From NCBI GenBank assembly GCA_029865345.1, contig JAOUHD010000016.1, positions 1-33,179 of the forward strand: a stretch of 33,179 nucleotides of DNA, in the 5' to 3' direction. Below the pieces are notes generated by a model. It searched no databases. It had not been told where the DNA came from and saw only the letters and a program-made list of their open reading frames with translations. The position numbers and the translations under genes are program-made. The DNA is from Nitrospira sp. Lineage in GTDB: Bacteria > Nitrospirota > Nitrospiria > Nitrospirales > Nitrospiraceae. Below, in pieces: positions 19,268-29,424 of this stretch (positions are counted from its first letter, which is position 1; every line of letters starts with the position of its first letter).

Positions 19268-20815
19268 TCAAATCAAGTTCACCTTCTGCTCGCCTTGCGC
19301 CTGTTTTGTCGCCAGGTAGGCCAACTTATTCAGGGCGCTGATATACGCCCGAGCAGACGCCGTAATGATATCGGTATCGGCGCCGTGGCCTGTGACCGTC
19401 CGACCATCCTCTTGCACCCGCACTGACACTTCACCCTGTGCATCTGTTCCACCAGTGATGGCCTTCACGACATACATCAGCAACTTGCTCTTCGTCTGTG
19501 TCATGACCGCAATGGTGCGGTACACGGCATCCACCGGCCCATCGCCGGTCCCGGTTTGAACGATGGGGGTGCCGTCGATTTCCAGTTCGACCGTGGCTGT
19601 TGGAACCCGATCCGTCCCACTCGATACTTGTAGTCCCTTGAGCCCAATGCGCTCGGCCATCTTCGACAACTCTTCGGAGACAATAACCTCGAGATCTTCC
19701 TCGAAAATCTCTTTCTTTTGATCGGCAAGTTTCTTGAACCGCTCGAAGGCATGGTTGACCTCTGCCTCGCCGAGCTTGTACCCCAACTCTTCTAGACGCT
19801 GCCGGAAGGCATGACGCCCAGACAACTTACCCATCACCATCTGGCTTTCGACCAGTCCGATTGATTCCGGACGCATAATTTCATAGGTCGTCTTCTCTTT
19901 GAGCAAGCCATCCTGATGAATACCTGACGTATGGGCAAAGGCGTTCGCCCCGACGATCGCCTTATTGGGTTGCACCACCATCCCCGTGATCTTGCTGACC
20001 AGACGACTGGTCTTCGCAATTTCCTCGGTTCGAATACGAGTATCCGCCTGATAGAAATCCGTCCTGGTACGGAGTCCCATCGCGATTTCTTCCAAGGATG
20101 TGTTACCAGCACGCTCTCCGATTCCGTTGATCGTACATTCCACTTGGCCGGCCCCATTCATAATCGCCGCCAAGCTGTTCGCCACCGCGACACCCAGATC
20201 GTTGTGGCAATGGACCGAAATCACCGCCTGTTTAGCATTGGGGACCTTGTCGCAAATCCCCTTGATCAGTGCGCCGAATTCTTGTGGGACGGCGTACCCT
20301 ACCGTGTCAGGAATGTTCACAGTGCTAGCTCCGGCAGCGATGACCGCCTCAATGACCTCGTAGAGAAACGAGGGATCTGATCGGCTCGCATCCATTGGAG
20401 AAAATTCGACATCATCCACATAACCCCGCGCCCGCTGGACCATCTCCACAGCACGCTGCTTGGCTTGCTCCCGCGTCATCCGAAACTGGTGCTTCAGATG
20501 AATATCGGACGTTGACAAGAACGTATGGATGCGGACTTTCGGTGCGCCTTTCAACGCCTCCCATGCTCGATCGATATCTTCGGGTCGAGCCCGTGCCAGA
20601 CTACAGATCGTCGGTCCTTCGACCTCCTGTGCGATACGCCGCACCGCTTCAAAGTCTCCGGGGGAGCTATAGGCAAATCCTGCCTCAATAATATCGACAC
20701 CGAGCCGGGCCAGTTGTTTGGCGACCATGACCTTTTCTTCCACGTTCATACTGGCGCCAGGCGATTGTTCGCCATCTCTCAAGGTCGTATCGAAAATTTT
20801 GATCATGCGTGTCAT
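19268..20815 (-). CDS. leuA: 2-isopropylmalate synthase
   Basis: Condenses acetyl-CoA with 2-oxoisovalerate, the first committed step of leucine synthesis. From the chosen ATG it is 515 residues. The catalytic HMGL-like barrel begins [16 protein letters not shown] (8-23) with metal-binding HCHNDLGVA further on. The C-terminal LeuA regulatory domain (about 385-510) is present, so leucine feedback inhibition is expected. GGAGGT lies five bases before the ATG. The frame stays open for another 64 codons upstream, but these fall within the palindromic element and T-box leader and are not coding. The leader predicts tRNA-Leu-dependent transcription control. Confidence 0.97.
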
Positions 20816-20830
20816 GGTTGACCTCCGATG

Positions 20831-20954
20831 CAAGCTGCTCAAAAAGTCCTTCCGGCAAGGCCGCAAGGAGTGAGAACCCCGAGGCGTACGCGTTTGGTAC
20901 GTTGAGGGGTTCGAACGACTGAGAACGCAGCGGGAAGGCTTTTTCAGCAGCTTG
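20831..20954. repeat. MITE/REP-like palindromic element in the leuA leader
   Basis: A 124-bp segment with imperfect terminal inverted repeats: CAAGCTGCTcAAAAAGtCCTTCC on the left and the complement of GGAAGGCTTTTTCAGCAGCTTG on the right, differing by one mismatch and one extra base. The centre is a second inverted repeat (AACCCCgAGGCGTAC against GTACGTTGAGGGGTT), so most of the element can fold into one long hairpin. It carries no reading frame of its own. No target-site duplication is obvious. Similar AAAAAG...CGAGGCGTACG...TTTTTCAGC repeats are, from memory, abundant in Nitrospira genomes; this needs checking. It separates the T-box terminator from the leuA ribosome binding site. Confidence 0.8.
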
Positions 20955-20955
20955 T

Positions 20956-21000
20956 AAAAACAAAAGCCTCCATCCCTATGAGACCCAGGGACGAAGGCTT
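20956..21000 (-). terminator. T-box-controlled intrinsic terminator upstream of leuA
   Basis: On the minus strand AAGCCTtCgTCCCT pairs with AGGGAtGgAGGCTT across a 9-base loop (20964-21000), followed by TTTTGTTTTT. This is the off-state hairpin of the leuA T-box. Its 5' arm begins shortly after the T-box antiterminator sequence, as expected for mutually exclusive structures. Confidence 0.85.
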
Positions 21001-21230
21001 GACGCACTCCGTGGTACCACCCTGATTTGGTCTGAGGACCAACTGGTCGTCAAACCCTTCATTCAGCCTCTTACGGAGGCAAGGCGGAATCTCCTACTTC
21101 ATGTTCGGAGATTCGGCTCGGAGGCGAGTTCGGCGACATCTAGGCTGGTTTGCACCACCCACCAGCTCTCTTCACAACACTTACCACCCCGTGTCTAGAT
21201 GGCTCGCGTACTATTCCTCGTCTTCGCCGT
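20956..21230 (-). ncRNA. T-box riboswitch, leucine specifier, controlling leuA
   Basis: Read on the minus strand, this leader has all parts of a T-box. The AGTA motif of stem I is at 21209-21212. A perfect 7-bp helix CATCTAG/CTAGATG joins 21195-21201 with 21137-21143. The distal stem I consensus GAGAGCTGGTGG...GTGCAAACCAGC spans 21144-21170. The specifier loop reads GAACTCGCC, giving the codon CUC (21126-21128), a leucine codon. The 14-base T-box AGGGTGGTACCACG is at 21010-21023, and the UGGU bulge suits a tRNA ending ACCA. A terminator with a U-tract follows. Uncharged tRNA-Leu should stabilise the antiterminator and allow leuA transcription. I found no clear promoter directly upstream, so transcription may arrive from pssA. 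Confidence 0.93.
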
Positions 21231-21267
21231 TCACAACTTTTTCAGTTCCTCCCACTGTTATCCGCCG

Positions 21268-22074
21268 TTATGAATTTGATTCGATCGGCGGAGGCTCGAC
21301 TTTTCCGATGCTCTTTTTCCCAGCTGCCGGAGCAACCAGCGAAAAGACTTTTTCGACCGGTCCCATCAATGCATAGCCGGCAAAGATGACAAATAACATG
21401 ACCGCCGGCCAGGCTGCCACCAGCATCAGCGTCAGAATACCCCAGACCAGGTAGGTAATCTGCCGGTGGCCCTTAAACTTCAGCTCTTTAAAGCTGCGAT
21501 ACTTGATCGTGCTGACCATTAAAAACGAAAGCGCCAACGTCATGAGCAGAACCACGATTGGCCTGACATCGCCTCCCATCTTGAGGAGGTAATGATCAAA
21601 GACCACCAGCGACGCCACCACCCCGGCCGCGGCTGGGATCGCGAGACCAGTAAAGTACTTCCCATCTGCTAGCGCTACGGTAGAGTTGAATCGCGCTAAC
21701 CGCACGGCACCCATGGCCACGTAGGCAAACATCACGGCCACGCCAAACGTACCCTGCCCGCTTAACGCCCACGAGTAGATCAACAACCCCGGTGCGACAC
21801 CAAATGACACCACATCGGACAGCGAGTCATACTCCAGCCCGAACTGACTCGTACTATTAGTCAATCTGGCCGACTTGCCATCCAATACGTCAAAAATCAT
21901 GGCGACAAGAATCGCGATGGCTGCTTCCAGATAGTTACCGTTGAAAACGGACAGGATGGCGAACACGCCGCAAAATAAGTTACCGGTCGTGAAGAGATTT
22001 GGAATGAGATGCATAGCGGCTTTCCGCCGTTTCCCATCTTTCCCGAAGGAATTCTTGAAGCCTGCCGTTTTCAT
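21268..22074 (-). CDS. pssA: CDP-diacylglycerol-serine O-phosphatidyltransferase
   Basis: Makes phosphatidylserine from CDP-diacylglycerol and serine in the inner membrane. The 268-residue protein contains about seven membrane segments and the complete CDP-alcohol phosphotransferase motif, DG..AR........G...D...D, at 65-87 (D62, D65, D83 and D87 in the active site). It overlaps the psd stop codon by four bases (ATGA), so the two sequential steps to phosphatidylethanolamine are coupled. The membrane-embedded type II enzyme is the expected form outside gamma-proteobacteria. The leuA T-box leader begins about 40 bases after its stop. Confidence 0.95.
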   Translation of the reverse strand: MKTAGFKNSFGKDGKRRKAAMHLIPNLFTTGNLFCGVFAILSVFNGNYLEAAIAILVAMIFDVLDGKSARLTNSTSQFGLEYDSLSDVVSFGVAPGLLIYSWALSGQGTFGVAVMFAYVAMGAVRLARFNSTVALADGKYFTGLAIPAAAGVVASLVVFDHYLLKMGGDVRPIVVLLMTLALSFLMVSTIKYRSFKELKFKGHRQITYLVWGILTLMLVAAWPAVMLFVIFAGYALMGPVEKVFSLVAPAAGKKSIGKVEPPPIESNS

Positions 22075-22721
22075 GGCAACTCTCCAATAATGGTTTCGCC
22101 GCCCTTCACACGATCACCCACCGCCACCCGAATCTTTGTACCCATCGGAAGGAACGTATCCATGCGCGACCCGAACCGGATCAAGCCATATCGTTCACCA
22201 CGTATCGCCTGCTCCCGATCCGAGATCCAACAGACGATTCGCCGAGCGATCAGCCCCGCGACTTGCACACACAACACCTTGATCCCGTCGTGCGTCTTGA
22301 TCATCACGGCATTCTGTTCGTTCCTCAGCGTCGCCTCCGGCTTGCTCGCAACCAAAAACAACCCCGGCTGATACTGAATACCTTCCACCACCCCATCGCA
22401 AGGCATACGATTGATGTGGACATCGAAGACATTCAAAAAAATCGTAAGCCTGACACTACGCTCTTTCAGGTAGCGGGGCTCAAACTCTTCCTCGATGGCG
22501 ATCACCTTGCCATCGCCGGGTGCAACAATCAGATTGGGACCTTGTGGGATCACCCGGGCCGGGTTGCGAAAAAACCAGGCAGAGAACAGCGTCGCAATCC
22601 CACCAAGAAACGCAACAACTGGCCATCCCAGCCATGCTGTCAAGAGTGTAACGCCGACAGGAGCTGCAATGAAGGGAATTCCTTCTTTGGCAAAGGGAAC
22701 ACCGACTGCACGATCCACCAT
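22071..22721 (-). CDS. psd: phosphatidylserine decarboxylase proenzyme (short form)
   Basis: Decarboxylates phosphatidylserine to phosphatidylethanolamine. The proenzyme cleaves itself to create a pyruvoyl group. At 216 residues this is the short form, as in archaea and many bacteria. The cleavage site is visible as G184-S185 in RFGSRMD. Hydrophobic segments lie at about 15-50, and FLNVFDVHINRMP (95-107) is the conserved core. TGAGG at the end of ilvC serves as ribosome binding site about seven bases before the ATG. It follows ilvC by nine bases and overlaps pssA by four. Confidence 0.95.
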   Translation of the reverse strand: MVDRAVGVPFAKEGIPFIAAPVGVTLLTAWLGWPVVAFLGGIATLFSAWFFRNPARVIPQGPNLIVAPGDGKVIAIEEEFEPRYLKERSVRLTIFLNVFDVHINRMPCDGVVEGIQYQPGLFLVASKPEATLRNEQNAVMIKTHDGIKVLCVQVAGLIARRIVCWISDREQAIRGERYGLIRFGSRMDTFLPMGTKIRVAVGDRVKGGETIIGELP

Positions 22722-22730
22722 GGACTTGCC

Positions 22731-23759
<1,029 letters not shown>

Positions 23760-23802
23760 TCATCTCGTCAGTATAGAGTAACACTGCGTGCGCAGCAGAA
23801 CG

Positions 23803-24321
23803 TTAGTCGCGGGCAACCTTCTTCGTTTGGACAGCAACGGGACGGGCCGGTTCCCGAGCGACGGCCACCCGGCCAGTACGGACCAAATCCTTGATCCCTA
23901 GGGGCTGTAACAAGTTGATGATCGCCTCAATCTTCTTAGGGTCTCCGGATACTTCAATGGTATAGGTGCTCGGGGTCGAATCGATCACGTTCGCTCGAAA
24001 GATATCCACGATTCTGAGCGCCTCGGCTCGATCCGCATCCTTCGTATGCACCTTGATAATTGCCGTCTCTCGCGAGACAAACTCCGTTTCGTTCAAATCC
24101 ACGACCTTGATGACATCGATGAGTTTGTTCAGCTGTTTGACGATCTGCTCGATGATCCGCTCATCACCCGATGTCACAATCGTCATCTGAGACATGGACG
24201 GATCAAGCGTCGGAGCAACCGACAAGCTCTCGATATTGAACCCACGACCGCTGAATAACCCAGCGACCCGTGACAGGACCCCAAATTTATTTTCAACCGT
24301 TACTGAAATAATGTGTTCCAT
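23803..24321 (-). CDS. ilvN: acetolactate synthase small (regulatory) subunit
   Basis: Regulatory subunit that activates the catalytic IlvB and confers valine feedback inhibition. The 172-residue protein has the N-terminal ACT domain (HIISVTVENKFGVLSRVAGLFSGRGFNIESL at about 3-33) and the C-terminal ALS_ss domain. The extra C-terminal 15 residues are basic and low-complexity. It lies 39 bases downstream of ilvB. The name ilvH is used in some genomes for the same gene. Confidence 0.96.
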   Translation of the reverse strand: MEHIISVTVENKFGVLSRVAGLFSGRGFNIESLSVAPTLDPSMSQMTIVTSGDERIIEQIVKQLNKLIDVIKVVDLNETEFVSRETAIIKVHTKDADRAEALRIVDIFRANVIDSTPSTYTIEVSGDPKKIEAIINLLQPLGIKDLVRTGRVAVAREPARPVAVQTKKVARD

Positions 24322-24360
24322 ACAATGCTTTCAGCTGAGAGCCATCCGCCGACGATTTCC

Positions 24361-26136
24361 CTATGCCGTGAGGACCGTATCTTTGTCCTCCGGCGTCACT
24401 TTTTCCGAACCGACCTGTTTCTTCTTCAACTCCGGTGGATCTTCCAGGAGCATCTCGTGGTTGCAGCCGCCAGCAGGGATCATCGGATAACAATTCTCAT
24501 AGGGATAGGTCGGCACATCCACGATGACGGGTTTATCGGTCTCCATCGCTTCTTTCAGAACGGCATCGAGGTCTCCGACCTTCTTGACCCGTAATCCCAC
24601 TGCGCCATAGGCTTCCGCCAGTTTCACGAAATCCGGCGTCGTGCCAAGGTCGCTCGACGCGTAACGCCCTTCGTAGAACAAGTCCTGCCATTGGCGGACC
24701 ATGCCGTGAAAACCATTGTTCAAAATGATGATCTTCACCGGCAACTTGCTCACCACAGCCGTGGCCATTTCCTGCATATTCATCTGAATGCTGCCGTCTC
24801 CCGCAATACACAAGACTAGTCGGTTCCGGAACGCGGCTTGGGCCCCCATTGCGGCAGGAAATCCAAACCCCATCGTGCCAAGCCCGCCCGATGTCAACCA
24901 TCGATTTGGCTTTGCCAACTTGAAATACTGTGCGGCCCACATTTGATGTTGGCCGACATCCGTCGAGACGATTGGGTCCCGGTCTTTAGTCAGCTCATAC
25001 AACCGCTTGACGACCTGCTGCGGCTTGATCGGTCCGTCTTGCTCTTGGTGATAGGTCAATGGATGGGCCTGCTGCCATTCGCGTATTTGATCCCACCAGG
25101 GCTTCCGAAGGTCTTTCTGTTCCCCATTCACCGTCGCGCGCAGGATCTGGTTCAACTCCCGAAGCACCGTCTTACAGTCGCCCACAATCGGAATATCGAC
25201 ATTGATGTTTTTCCGAATAGAGGTCGGGTCAATATCGACATGAATCACTTTTGCATAGGGACAGAACTCCGACACCTTCCCCGTCACCCGATCATCAAAC
25301 CGTGCGCCGATGGCAATCACCAGATCGGAATAATGCATGGCCATGTTGGCTTCATAGGTGCCATGCATCCCCAGCATCCCCATGGAGAGAGGATGCTCTC
25401 CCGGAAACACCCCGAGCCCCATCAGTGTCATGTCGACCGGAATCTGCGTCATCTCAGCCAATTCAAGCAGTTCCTGTGAGGCGCCTGAAAAGCCGACACC
25501 GCCGCCAACATAGAGAATCGGCTTCTTGGCCTTCATGATCGCTTCAGCGGCCTGCTTGATCTGCCACTTATTCCCTTCGTAGGTCGGATTGTAGCCACGA
25601 ATCGAAACGGAATTCGGATAGGTGAATTCCGCTTTAGCCATCGAGACATCTTTCGGGATATCCACCAAGACCGGGCCCGGACGACCGGTCGTCGCAATAT
25701 AAAACGCCTCTTTGATCGTGGCCGCCAAATCGTTCACATCTTTGACGAGAAAATTGTATTTCGTGCAGGGGCGGCTCAAACCGATGTTGTCCGCTTCCTG
25801 AAAAGCATCGTTTCCGATCAGACTAGTCGGGACTTGGCCGCTGAAACAGACCATAGGAACAGAATCCATATAGGCATCGGCTAACGCCGTAATGACGTTG
25901 GTCATGCCAGGGCCCGAAGTGACCAGACACACGCCGGCCTTTCCCGTTGCCTTCGCGTAGCCTTCGGCCATATGGCCAGCACCCTGCTCATGGCGTGTCA
26001 AAATCACTTCAATGTCTTTTTGTTGATGAAGTGTATCGAAAATCTTCAGGACGACGCCTCCGGGAAGCGCAAAGAGCGTCTTGACTCCTTCCCGCTTCAG
26101 ACATTCGATGAAGATTTCAGCACCGGTGAGTTTCAT
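24361..26136 (-). CDS. ilvB: acetolactate synthase large (catalytic) subunit
   Basis: Thiamine-diphosphate-dependent enzyme making acetolactate or acetohydroxybutyrate, the first common step of branched-chain amino acid synthesis. The protein is 591 residues. The N-terminal PYR domain starts with TGAEIFIECLKREGV and FALPGG. The catalytic glutamate lies in TRHEQGAGHMAEGYA. The C-terminal ThDP motif reads GDGSIQMNMQEMATAV...NN. GGGAGGG lies five bases before the ATG. It is the first gene of the ilvBNC-psd-pssA-leuA run, with a promoter candidate about 120 bases upstream. Confidence 0.97.
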   Translation of the reverse strand: MKLTGAEIFIECLKREGVKTLFALPGGVVLKIFDTLHQQKDIEVILTRHEQGAGHMAEGYAKATGKAGVCLVTSGPGMTNVITALADAYMDSVPMVCFSGQVPTSLIGNDAFQEADNIGLSRPCTKYNFLVKDVNDLAATIKEAFYIATTGRPGPVLVDIPKDVSMAKAEFTYPNSVSIRGYNPTYEGNKWQIKQAAEAIMKAKKPILYVGGGVGFSGASQELLELAEMTQIPVDMTLMGLGVFPGEHPLSMGMLGMHGTYEANMAMHYSDLVIAIGARFDDRVTGKVSEFCPYAKVIHVDIDPTSIRKNINVDIPIVGDCKTVLRELNQILRATVNGEQKDLRKPWWDQIREWQQAHPLTYHQEQDGPIKPQQVVKRLYELTKDRDPIVSTDVGQHQMWAAQYFKLAKPNRWLTSGGLGTMGFGFPAAMGAQAAFRNRLVLCIAGDGSIQMNMQEMATAVVSKLPVKIIILNNGFHGMVRQWQDLFYEGRYASSDLGTTPDFVKLAEAYGAVGLRVKKVGDLDAVLKEAMETDKPVIVDVPTYPYENCYPMIPAGGCNHEMLLEDPPELKKKQVGSEKVTPEDKDTVLTA

Positions 26137-26340: not shown

Positions 26341-26777
26341 AAGCGTGAGCGGAAGACCTATAAGCCGGATTCTGTCCCGCAAAGAAGTTGCCCTCTTTGC
26401 TTGGATGATCATTTCTCTGGGATTCGAGTTACCTCGAACCTCAAGCGACCTACCCGAAGACCTCGACCGGGCCAGCCGGCGTACAACGGTCCGTGAGGAA
26501 CGCTGTACATGTCTTCCTATTTGGCCTTGCACCAGGCGACGCTTACCGTGCCGGTGATGTCGCCACCCCCGCGGTGGGCTCTTACCCCACCGTTTCACCC
26601 TTACCTGAGCCGCAGCGACCAGATGGGATCCCGTCGCGTTGGCCATCGGCGGTTTGTTTTCTGTGGTGCTGGTGTCGGATTGCTCCGCCTGGGAGTTACC
26701 CAGCGCCCTGCCCATGGAGTCCGGACTTTCCTCTCGACGCCGAAGCACCGAGCGACCATCCAGTCTTCCACCCACGC
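26341..26777 (-). ncRNA. rnpB: RNase P RNA (bacterial type A)
   Basis: Catalytic RNA subunit that removes tRNA 5' leaders. On the minus strand the universally conserved 5' part GAGGAAAGTCCGGACTCC (about 26716-26733), followed by GGGCAGGGCGCTGG, and the conserved 3' part ACAGAATCCGGCTTATAGG (about 26358-26376) are both present. The ends pair as helix P1 (GCGTGGGTGGAAGAC with GTCTTCCGCTCACGC), fixing the boundaries to within a few bases. The length of about 437 nt is slightly larger than E. coli M1 RNA (377), because of longer peripheral helices such as the one near GGTTCGAGGTAACTCGAATCC. Open frames across it are accidental. Confidence 0.95.
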
Positions 26778-29347: not shown

Positions 29348-29424
29348 TGGTGGGCCCACTAGGACTTGAACCTAGGACCAGCTGATTATGAGTCAGCCGC
29401 TCTAACCACCTGAGCTATGGGCCC
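29348..29424 (-). tRNA. tRNA with CAU anticodon, probably tRNA-Ile2 (lysidine type)
   Basis: A 77-nt cloverleaf on the minus strand. The acceptor stem is GGGCCCA / TGGGCCC with A73 and encoded CCA (29348-29350). The D arm contains AGCTCAGGTGGTTAGAGC, the anticodon stem-loop is CTGACTCATAATCAG (anticodon at 29388-29390), and the T arm is CCTAGGTTCAAGTCCTAGT. A CAU anticodon can belong to elongator Met, initiator Met or Ile2 (C34 modified to lysidine by TilS). G1-C72 pairing excludes the initiator type. The loop CTCATAA and the GGTC..AGGTTCAAGTCC arm resemble known Ile2 tRNAs (E. coli ileX) more than elongator Met, but this is not certain. Confidence 0.9.

Follow-up and report, generated by a model that had tools for sequence, protein, structure and literature searches.

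A leucine T-box preceding leuA in Nitrospira and its extra stem I arm, the likely remnant of an inserted palindrome

T-box riboswitches are described in the available part of Wels 2008 (PMC2494555) from Firmicutes, Actinobacteria, Chloroflexi, Deinococcus/Thermus and two Proteobacteria, in the last of these at leuA, and Firmicutes account for over 95% of the T-box hits in one survey (PMC2494555, same excerpt). The leuA T-boxes of Geobacter and Pelobacter are likewise placed in front of leuA in Gram-negative bacteria, and that of Geobacter metallireducens is predicted, as is the one in Nitrospira, to respond to tRNA-Leu GAG (PMC2494555 and PMC2700814, available excerpts). According to the accessible sections of a review (PMC7583486), lineage-specific insertions, of unknown structure and function, occur in every T-box domain. 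The main text of the TBDB paper, in the portion available, contains no words beginning with nitro or proteobacteria. The original prediction for the locus described here held that its T-box would widen the known phylum range, or at least belong to a poorly described part of it, which fits the literature that we found: the phyla table of Wels 2008, in the excerpt available, has no row for Nitrospirae. No paper treating a T-box RNA in Nitrospira was returned by our literature search; the member lists of Rfam and TBDB may contain such matches. The two terms co-occurred in two papers: in the accessible part of PMC10941002 this is chance wording, and the second is on an immunology topic. On T-box stem I insertions, or on T-boxes together with leader peptides, the search gave background only.

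The window, by which we mean the whole 33,179-nt stretch that was analyzed (contig JAOUHD010000016.1 of the Nitrospira sp. assembly GCA_029865345.1), carries leuA in the Pfam-based gene order ilvB-ilvN-ilvC-psd-pssA-[T-box]-leuA-cupin-leuB, on the minus strand throughout. The family to which this genome belongs is Gram-negative and includes nitrite oxidizers. Our reading of the leuA leader, to which we give a probability of about 0.85, is a leucine T-box that would let transcription proceed into leuA when tRNA-Leu(GAG) is uncharged, with an additional arm in its predicted stem I that is likely what remains of an inserted palindrome, itself probably mobile. The genes around the leader are as follows.

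19268..20815, minus strand: leuA, 2-isopropylmalate synthase, 515 aa (Pfam PF00682 and PF08502)
20821..20826, minus strand: ribosome-binding site of leuA, GGAGGT (from the sequence)
21268..22074, minus strand: pssA-like gene, CDP-alcohol phosphatidyltransferase (Pfam PF01066)
22071..26136, minus strand: ilvB, ilvN, ilvC and psd, upstream (Pfam)

The ATG start codon of leuA is at 20815-20813, and 34 nt lie between the end of the pssA-like gene and the T-box match. Since the segment 20800-21500 yielded no sigma-70-like promoter when one was looked for, the T-box may act within the operon. The window also carries, both on the minus strand, an RNase P RNA of bacterial class A at 26345-26771 (287 bits) and a tRNA with anticodon CAU at 29348-29424.

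The leader matches the Rfam T-box model RF00230 at 20984-21233 of the minus strand, over positions 1-219 of 219 of the model, with an E value of 2.3e-19 and a cmscan score of 93.1 bits, which exceeds the gathering score of 93 by just 0.1 bits. It is the sole RF00230 match within the 3.33-Mb genome. A leucine T-box before leuA in Nitrospira, as had been predicted, is borne out by the RF00230 match (the covariance check, at 93.1 against 93), the CUC specifier and the identification of LeuA by Pfam. The AGTA motif, 7-bp stem I helix, distal part, CUC codon, T-box sequence and terminator that had been named were all located in the sequence, among the following elements.

20984..21233, minus strand: T-box leader, RF00230 match over model positions 1-219
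21209..21212, minus strand: AGTA motif at the base of stem I (from the sequence)
21195..21201, minus strand: stem I helix, 5' strand CATCTAG (from the sequence; changes on both sides in relatives)
21173..21193, minus strand: extra arm of stem I, CACGGGGTGGTAAGTGTTGTG, likely the stump of an inserted palindrome
21144..21171, minus strand: AG bulge (AGAGAG) and distal loop region of stem I (alignment to the RF00230 model)
21166-21161 / 21149-21144, minus strand: distal part, GCTGGT / ACCAGC (from the sequence)
21137..21143, minus strand: stem I helix, 3' strand CTAGATG, partner of 21201-21195 (from the sequence; changes on both sides in relatives)
21126..21128, minus strand: specifier codon CUC, leucine (from the sequence; CUC or CUG across 125 genomes)
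21087..21114, minus strand: stem II, GAATCTCC / GGAGATTC (model alignment and sequence)
21029..21056, minus strand: stem III, GGTTTGA / TCAGACC (model alignment and sequence)
20987..21023, minus strand: antiterminator, formed by the AGGGTGGTACCACG box at 21023-21010 and a 3' strand reaching to 20987
20956..21000, minus strand: intrinsic terminator, with its stem at 21000-20964 and a T-rich tail to 20956

The AGGGTGGTACCACG box is intact, with the 7-nt antiterminator bulge TGGTACC at 21019-21013, and a terminator scan assigns 15 pairs to the hairpin at 21000-20964. In silico, the terminator folds at -22.7 kcal/mol and the bulged antiterminator at -12.1 kcal/mol; the strand GCCUUCGUCCC is common to both, being the 5' strand of the terminator, so that the two predicted structures are mutually exclusive. 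A plain energy fold of 21105-21240 did not return stem I (z 0.26), and support for the structure therefore comes from the covariance model and the comparison with relatives, and not from folding energy. The leuA leader of the window is accounted for by the T-box.

Matches to RF00230 at E <= 0.001 are present in 125 of 395 Nitrospirota genomes, belonging to 24 of 169 genera; 58 of these genomes score above the gathering score and 67 below it. The leucine T-box is nearly fixed in the window's family, where 108 of 110 genomes have a match; of the two others, G388 has a LeuA match that starts at residue 110, with the first base of its contig, and G336 gave no LeuA either. Further matches occur in six genomes of families f6 and f9 of the same class and in 11 genomes of families f15, f16 and f19 of the phylum. 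leuA lies downstream in 122 of the 126 hit loci, which come from 125 genomes with G316 counted twice, and the remaining four run into a contig end first. In G316 (L049 and L050) one T-box is split across two overlapping contig ends, which resembles an assembly break. The distance from T-box to leuA is long in two of the 122 loci (780 nt in G022 and 1161 nt in G197). As specifier, 122 genomes have CUC and three (G236, G165 and G362) have CUG, which is also a leucine codon; the CUG codons at L017, L022 and L107 replace CUC in three related genomes. By motif, a T-box is found in 56 of 80 named loci, one of them (L222) assigned by hand.

Stem I itself shows compensatory change. Over 54 distinct 72-nt segments, three helices and 16 pairs, 84.5% of the cells are paired, a percentage lowered by rows in which the distal helix is out of register, and 170 cells are changed on both sides. 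When the partner strand was slid by one to three columns, at most 49% of the cells were paired and at most 66 were changed on both sides, and 200 shuffles gave at most 68.9% and 86, respectively. Terminator arms are present in 172 of 178 leaders, a set in which some contigs are entered under two names, and show changes matched between the two sides, for example CUUCG/CGAAG and CUCCG/UGGAG. The terminator is predicted to be the more stable of the two alternative structures in all 143 leaders that could be excised for folding, out of 177 with a T-box. The expectation that specifier and stem I would be kept in relatives has thus held, with 108 of 110 family members matching.

The genome contains 35 tRNA matches, and reading the identities of the one in the window and of the other 34 gave the leucine anticodons UAG, UAA, CAG, CAA and GAG. 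The 3' end of tRNA-Leu(GAG) is GGCACCA, which makes this tRNA able to pair with both CUC and UGGU. The window thus combines a specifier that fits the amino acid of leuA with a genome that encodes the cognate tRNA, and in the conserved AGGGUGGNACCRCG with its bulge, UGGU fits the ACCA end of tRNA-Leu(GAG). In the mechanism that these elements suggest, the GAG anticodon would be read by the CUC codon of stem I and the tRNA elbow would be held by the AG bulge and the distal loop. The ACCA end of an uncharged tRNA would then pair with UGGU in the bulge and hold the antiterminator, GCCUUCGUCCC would be kept out of the terminator, and transcription would continue into leuA. A charged tRNA would be unable to pair at the bulge, and the terminator would win.

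The stem I arm and the palindrome before leuA were not part of the original prediction. The spacing between AGTA region and specifier is ordinary in 84 of the 125 genomes, exceeds this by 17-21 nt, forming a short arm, in 20 genomes including that of the window, and exceeds it by about 60-128 nt, forming an insert, in 13; the others comprise three genomes with an insert in the distal loop, four with an ultrashort stem I and one (G131) with another long insert. These classes were set by hand for the second piece of G316, G346 and G314 (anchorless; 3 of 126 rows) and for G380, G091, G304 and G286, as were, from the sequence, those of some named loci, and the four hit loci lacking leuA were classed from their sequences. 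The long insert of G131 (L039), a different one, is found at the site in stem I where the short arms and the 13 inserts lie, immediately ahead of the AG bulge.

The insert in the 13 genomes is a palindrome with a full length of about 127 nt and a predicted hairpin energy of -19 to -59 kcal/mol; one of the 13 shows 80% identity to the query of the palindrome family over 107 nt. Used as a query in 11 genomes, this one insert gave at least 29-45 matches in each, with about 40 candidates scored per genome. The ends of the insert, CAGAATG..CATTCTG, match the CAGGATG..CATCCTG of the dispersed copies, and most of the copies aligned from the genome of the window end in CAGGATG..CATCCTG or close variants. 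In G332 and G091, the short arm consists of the ends of the insert closed by five bases.

All T-box elements are kept in the 13 genomes despite the full or partial insert, which suggests that the structure would tolerate the insertion. The window's T-box could in principle be a functionless relic, as its score barely above the cut-off and the foreign arm in stem I might indicate; we consider this very improbable, given that its specifier, T-box, stems and terminator are intact, that the stem I helices covary in relatives and that those 13 genomes retain their elements.

Pairing within the 20 short arms amounts to 88.4%, a value that 30 of 500 shuffles reach, against a maximum of 52.9% when slid; the covariation score of the arms was reached by 5 of 500 shuffles and their number of both-sided changes by 98 of 500. 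The arm in the window ranks with the weakest of them: aligned in register with those of its relatives, it contains a mismatch as well as several G-U pairs.

In a LeuA tree of 180 rows, in which the closest row to the window is L063 (G256), 99% identical, the arm and the insert together form one group of 38 rows with a support of 89, and G384 stands apart, so that the presence of either on this tree needs two changes. Inside the 38-row group, whose internal branching is poorly resolved, arm and insert each need 11 changes, four of them forced by starred branches. In a smaller tree, the armless G394 falls inside the arm/insert group. We read the main group as one insertion followed by repeated trimming, and G384 as a separate insertion. 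The palindrome would most likely have entered stem I in an ancestor of one Nitrospira clade, at a point where a side arm leaves stem I unbroken, and would afterward have been worn away on several occasions until just its two ends remained.

The order of events might also be the reverse: the short arm would be the older, a native hairpin of stem I, and the palindrome would have been inserted into its loop, perhaps repeatedly. The nearly uniform length of the arm throughout the group (17-21 extra nt), the alternation of arm and insert on the LeuA tree and the occurrence at that spot of two further inserts, one separate (G384) and one unrelated (G131), would all suit such an order. We nevertheless judge it unlikely, as the 7 outermost arm bases are the ends of the dispersed palindrome, which is expected of a stump. 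In addition, identity to the insert query is 91-100% for the stem I inserts in six genomes, and still 91-95% for those of distant members, whereas the best-scoring other copy reaches 83%, with a few shorter stretches up to 85%. The inserts are thus more alike than the paralogous copies, which argues for one inherited insertion and not for repeated ones. Insertion first and trimming to an arm afterward is accordingly the direction that we favor, as the one to which these comparisons point.

A second copy of the palindrome family lies next to the T-box.

20831..20954, minus strand: 124-nt palindrome, member of the dispersed family, in the gap between terminator and leuA (sequence comparison)

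This copy runs opposite to the stem I insert and, used as a query, gave 19 matches in the genome, itself included. Its hairpin is predicted at -55.5 kcal/mol. Being placed after the terminator, it would have to be transcribed along with leuA every time. A member of the family is present at E <= 1e-3 in 73 of 122 gaps between T-box and leuA, that of the window included, and 70 of these share the window's orientation; 67 of the 73 gaps measure 150-240 nt, and three of the 73 hits, in gaps of at most 70 nt, are probably due to chance. In other relatives, the gap of about 34-66 nt is too small for a palindrome. One could imagine from this strong hairpin between the T-box and the ribosome-binding site, and from the 73 of 122 gaps that hold the family, that the T-box acts on translation, or that the palindrome near leuA is the real switch, through fold-back of the ribosome-binding site or an end to transcription. 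We regard this as scarcely probable: the intrinsic terminator is strong, has a T-rich tail and stands at the position typical of a transcriptional T-box, and in some relatives leuA begins 34-56 nt past the match, where the palindrome cannot fit. Control by the T-box at the terminator thus remains our reading of the leader.

The palindrome family is found in at least 52 of 57 genomes of the order, with up to 15 candidates scored per genome. In the window, no Rfam families other than T-box, RNase P and tRNA reach the gathering score, so that the palindrome is nameless in Rfam at that threshold. A search of the genome for a transposase tied to the palindrome found none. A REP/RAYT origin was considered and is unsupported, as no family member occurs at the two Y1_Tnp loci of the genome. 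These two Y1 transposase matches are L255 and L256 (G000); one has an internal stop, and neither bears a copy of the palindrome. On contig C48 of G000 (L288), a copy adjoins a tRNA-Leu(CAG) gene. Among the 10 papers listed, of 304, in our literature search on palindromes in Nitrospira, none contains that name; PMC12542641, which mentions both Nitrospira and miniature inverted repeats, was set aside, as its available part deals with other contigs.

A different modification of stem I is seen in family f9 (G232, G163, G296, G326 and L253), where 24-29 nt separate the AGTA region from the specifier and stem I is devoid of the AG bulge and the distal loop, the elbow-binding end. Rfam scores are 68-86 bits, under the gathering score. 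These leaders have a CUC specifier as well as stem II, and their terminators are predicted at -31 to -36 kcal/mol; in five of six loci, with one genome counted twice, TTGACA-18-CATAAT lies directly upstream of the T-box. Leucine T-boxes of this family with an ultrashort stem I are found at loci L040-L043, L250 and L253. As transcriptional T-boxes generally require a long stem I according to a review (PMC7583486, available excerpt), f9 merits a separate study. At L131, L134, L135, L193 and L194, an extra hairpin is present in the distal loop of stem I, the expected contact of the tRNA elbow.

In the neighboring family f2, the 18 genomes that had been listed without a match gave no T-box, and Rfam at the gathering score found none among 20 loci scanned. 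Visual inspection shows that one of those 20, L194, which is not of the f2 kind, carries a T-box with a distal-loop insert, and its absence at the gathering score indicates that this threshold is insensitive here. leuA leaders of the f2 kind devoid of a T-box are L155-L170, L172, L175-L192, L195, L240, L244 and L301-L303. Some f2 leaders retain AGCCTTCGTCCC and a matching 3' arm ahead of a T run, some have an altered terminator behind short, leucine-rich open reading frames such as MDQWQGKGRAPLLLGDATLTLASLLKIAVTP or MRKLQGKGRATLLLCKNHLTLLGLLETSALI, and some have no remaining terminator at all. Two leaders of family f3 (L296 and L300) likewise have no T-box and keep a similar terminator, beginning with GCAGCCTTCCTCCC. 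In five of nine f2 leaders tested, no more than 1 of 300 shuffles equals the leucine content of the reading frame; in the other four, 27-72 of 300 do. Variable columns number 21, 18 and 22 of 30 at the three codon positions, with no excess at the third; being even in this way, they give no sign of selection on a peptide beyond its leucines. In a LeuA tree of 64 rows, rooted on outgroups that bear the T-box, the T-box state needs four changes, three of them forced by starred branches, and we read these changes as losses. We hypothesize that in f2 the T-box was replaced by peptide attenuation at a similar terminator.

Taken as a whole, a tentative scenario, which we hold to be nearly as probable as its contrary, would run as follows: a mobile palindrome invaded the aptamer and the riboswitch survived; its trimmed stump became a new arm, which may contact the tRNA or tune the switch; and elsewhere in the order, an ancestral leucine T-box gave way to a peptide attenuator that reused the terminator. 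If so, one leuA leader would display both the gain of a riboswitch domain and the replacement of a sensor. The T-box of the window's family opens a way to study amino-acid control in bacteria that are difficult to culture, and the armed clade offers an origin for one T-box insertion of the unexplained kind. As full, partial and stump stages coexist, effects on tRNA binding would be measurable stepwise. The relatives add two test cases, a terminator T-box that has no elbow platform and a family that seemingly swapped the T-box for a leader peptide.

Compared with known systems, the palindromes resemble the short, dispersed, multi-copy palindromes of REP and MITE elements, from which they differ by their length of about 122-127 nt and by having no Y1 transposase gene alongside. 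The LEU element of Actinobacteria (PMC1262725, available excerpt) is also a leuA leader for which co-option from a transposition-linked element has been suggested; it is a pseudoknot and not a T-box, and the co-option idea is based on one transposase gene. The translational T-boxes of Actinobacteria with intermediate or ultrashort stem I (PMC7583486 and PMC1262725, in the parts available) share with f9 the missing elbow-binding end and the retention of stem II, whereas f9 has a terminator, leuA downstream and a CUC specifier. Geobacter and Pelobacter belong to a different phylum, and the accessible parts of PMC2494555 and PMC2700814 mention neither an insert nor an arm in their stem I. With the canonical class I transcriptional T-box (RF00230; PMC7583486, available sections), the Nitrospira leader shares the stem I with AG bulge and distal loop, the specifier, stems II and III, the antiterminator and the terminator, and it differs from this canonical form by the extra arm beside the AG bulge.
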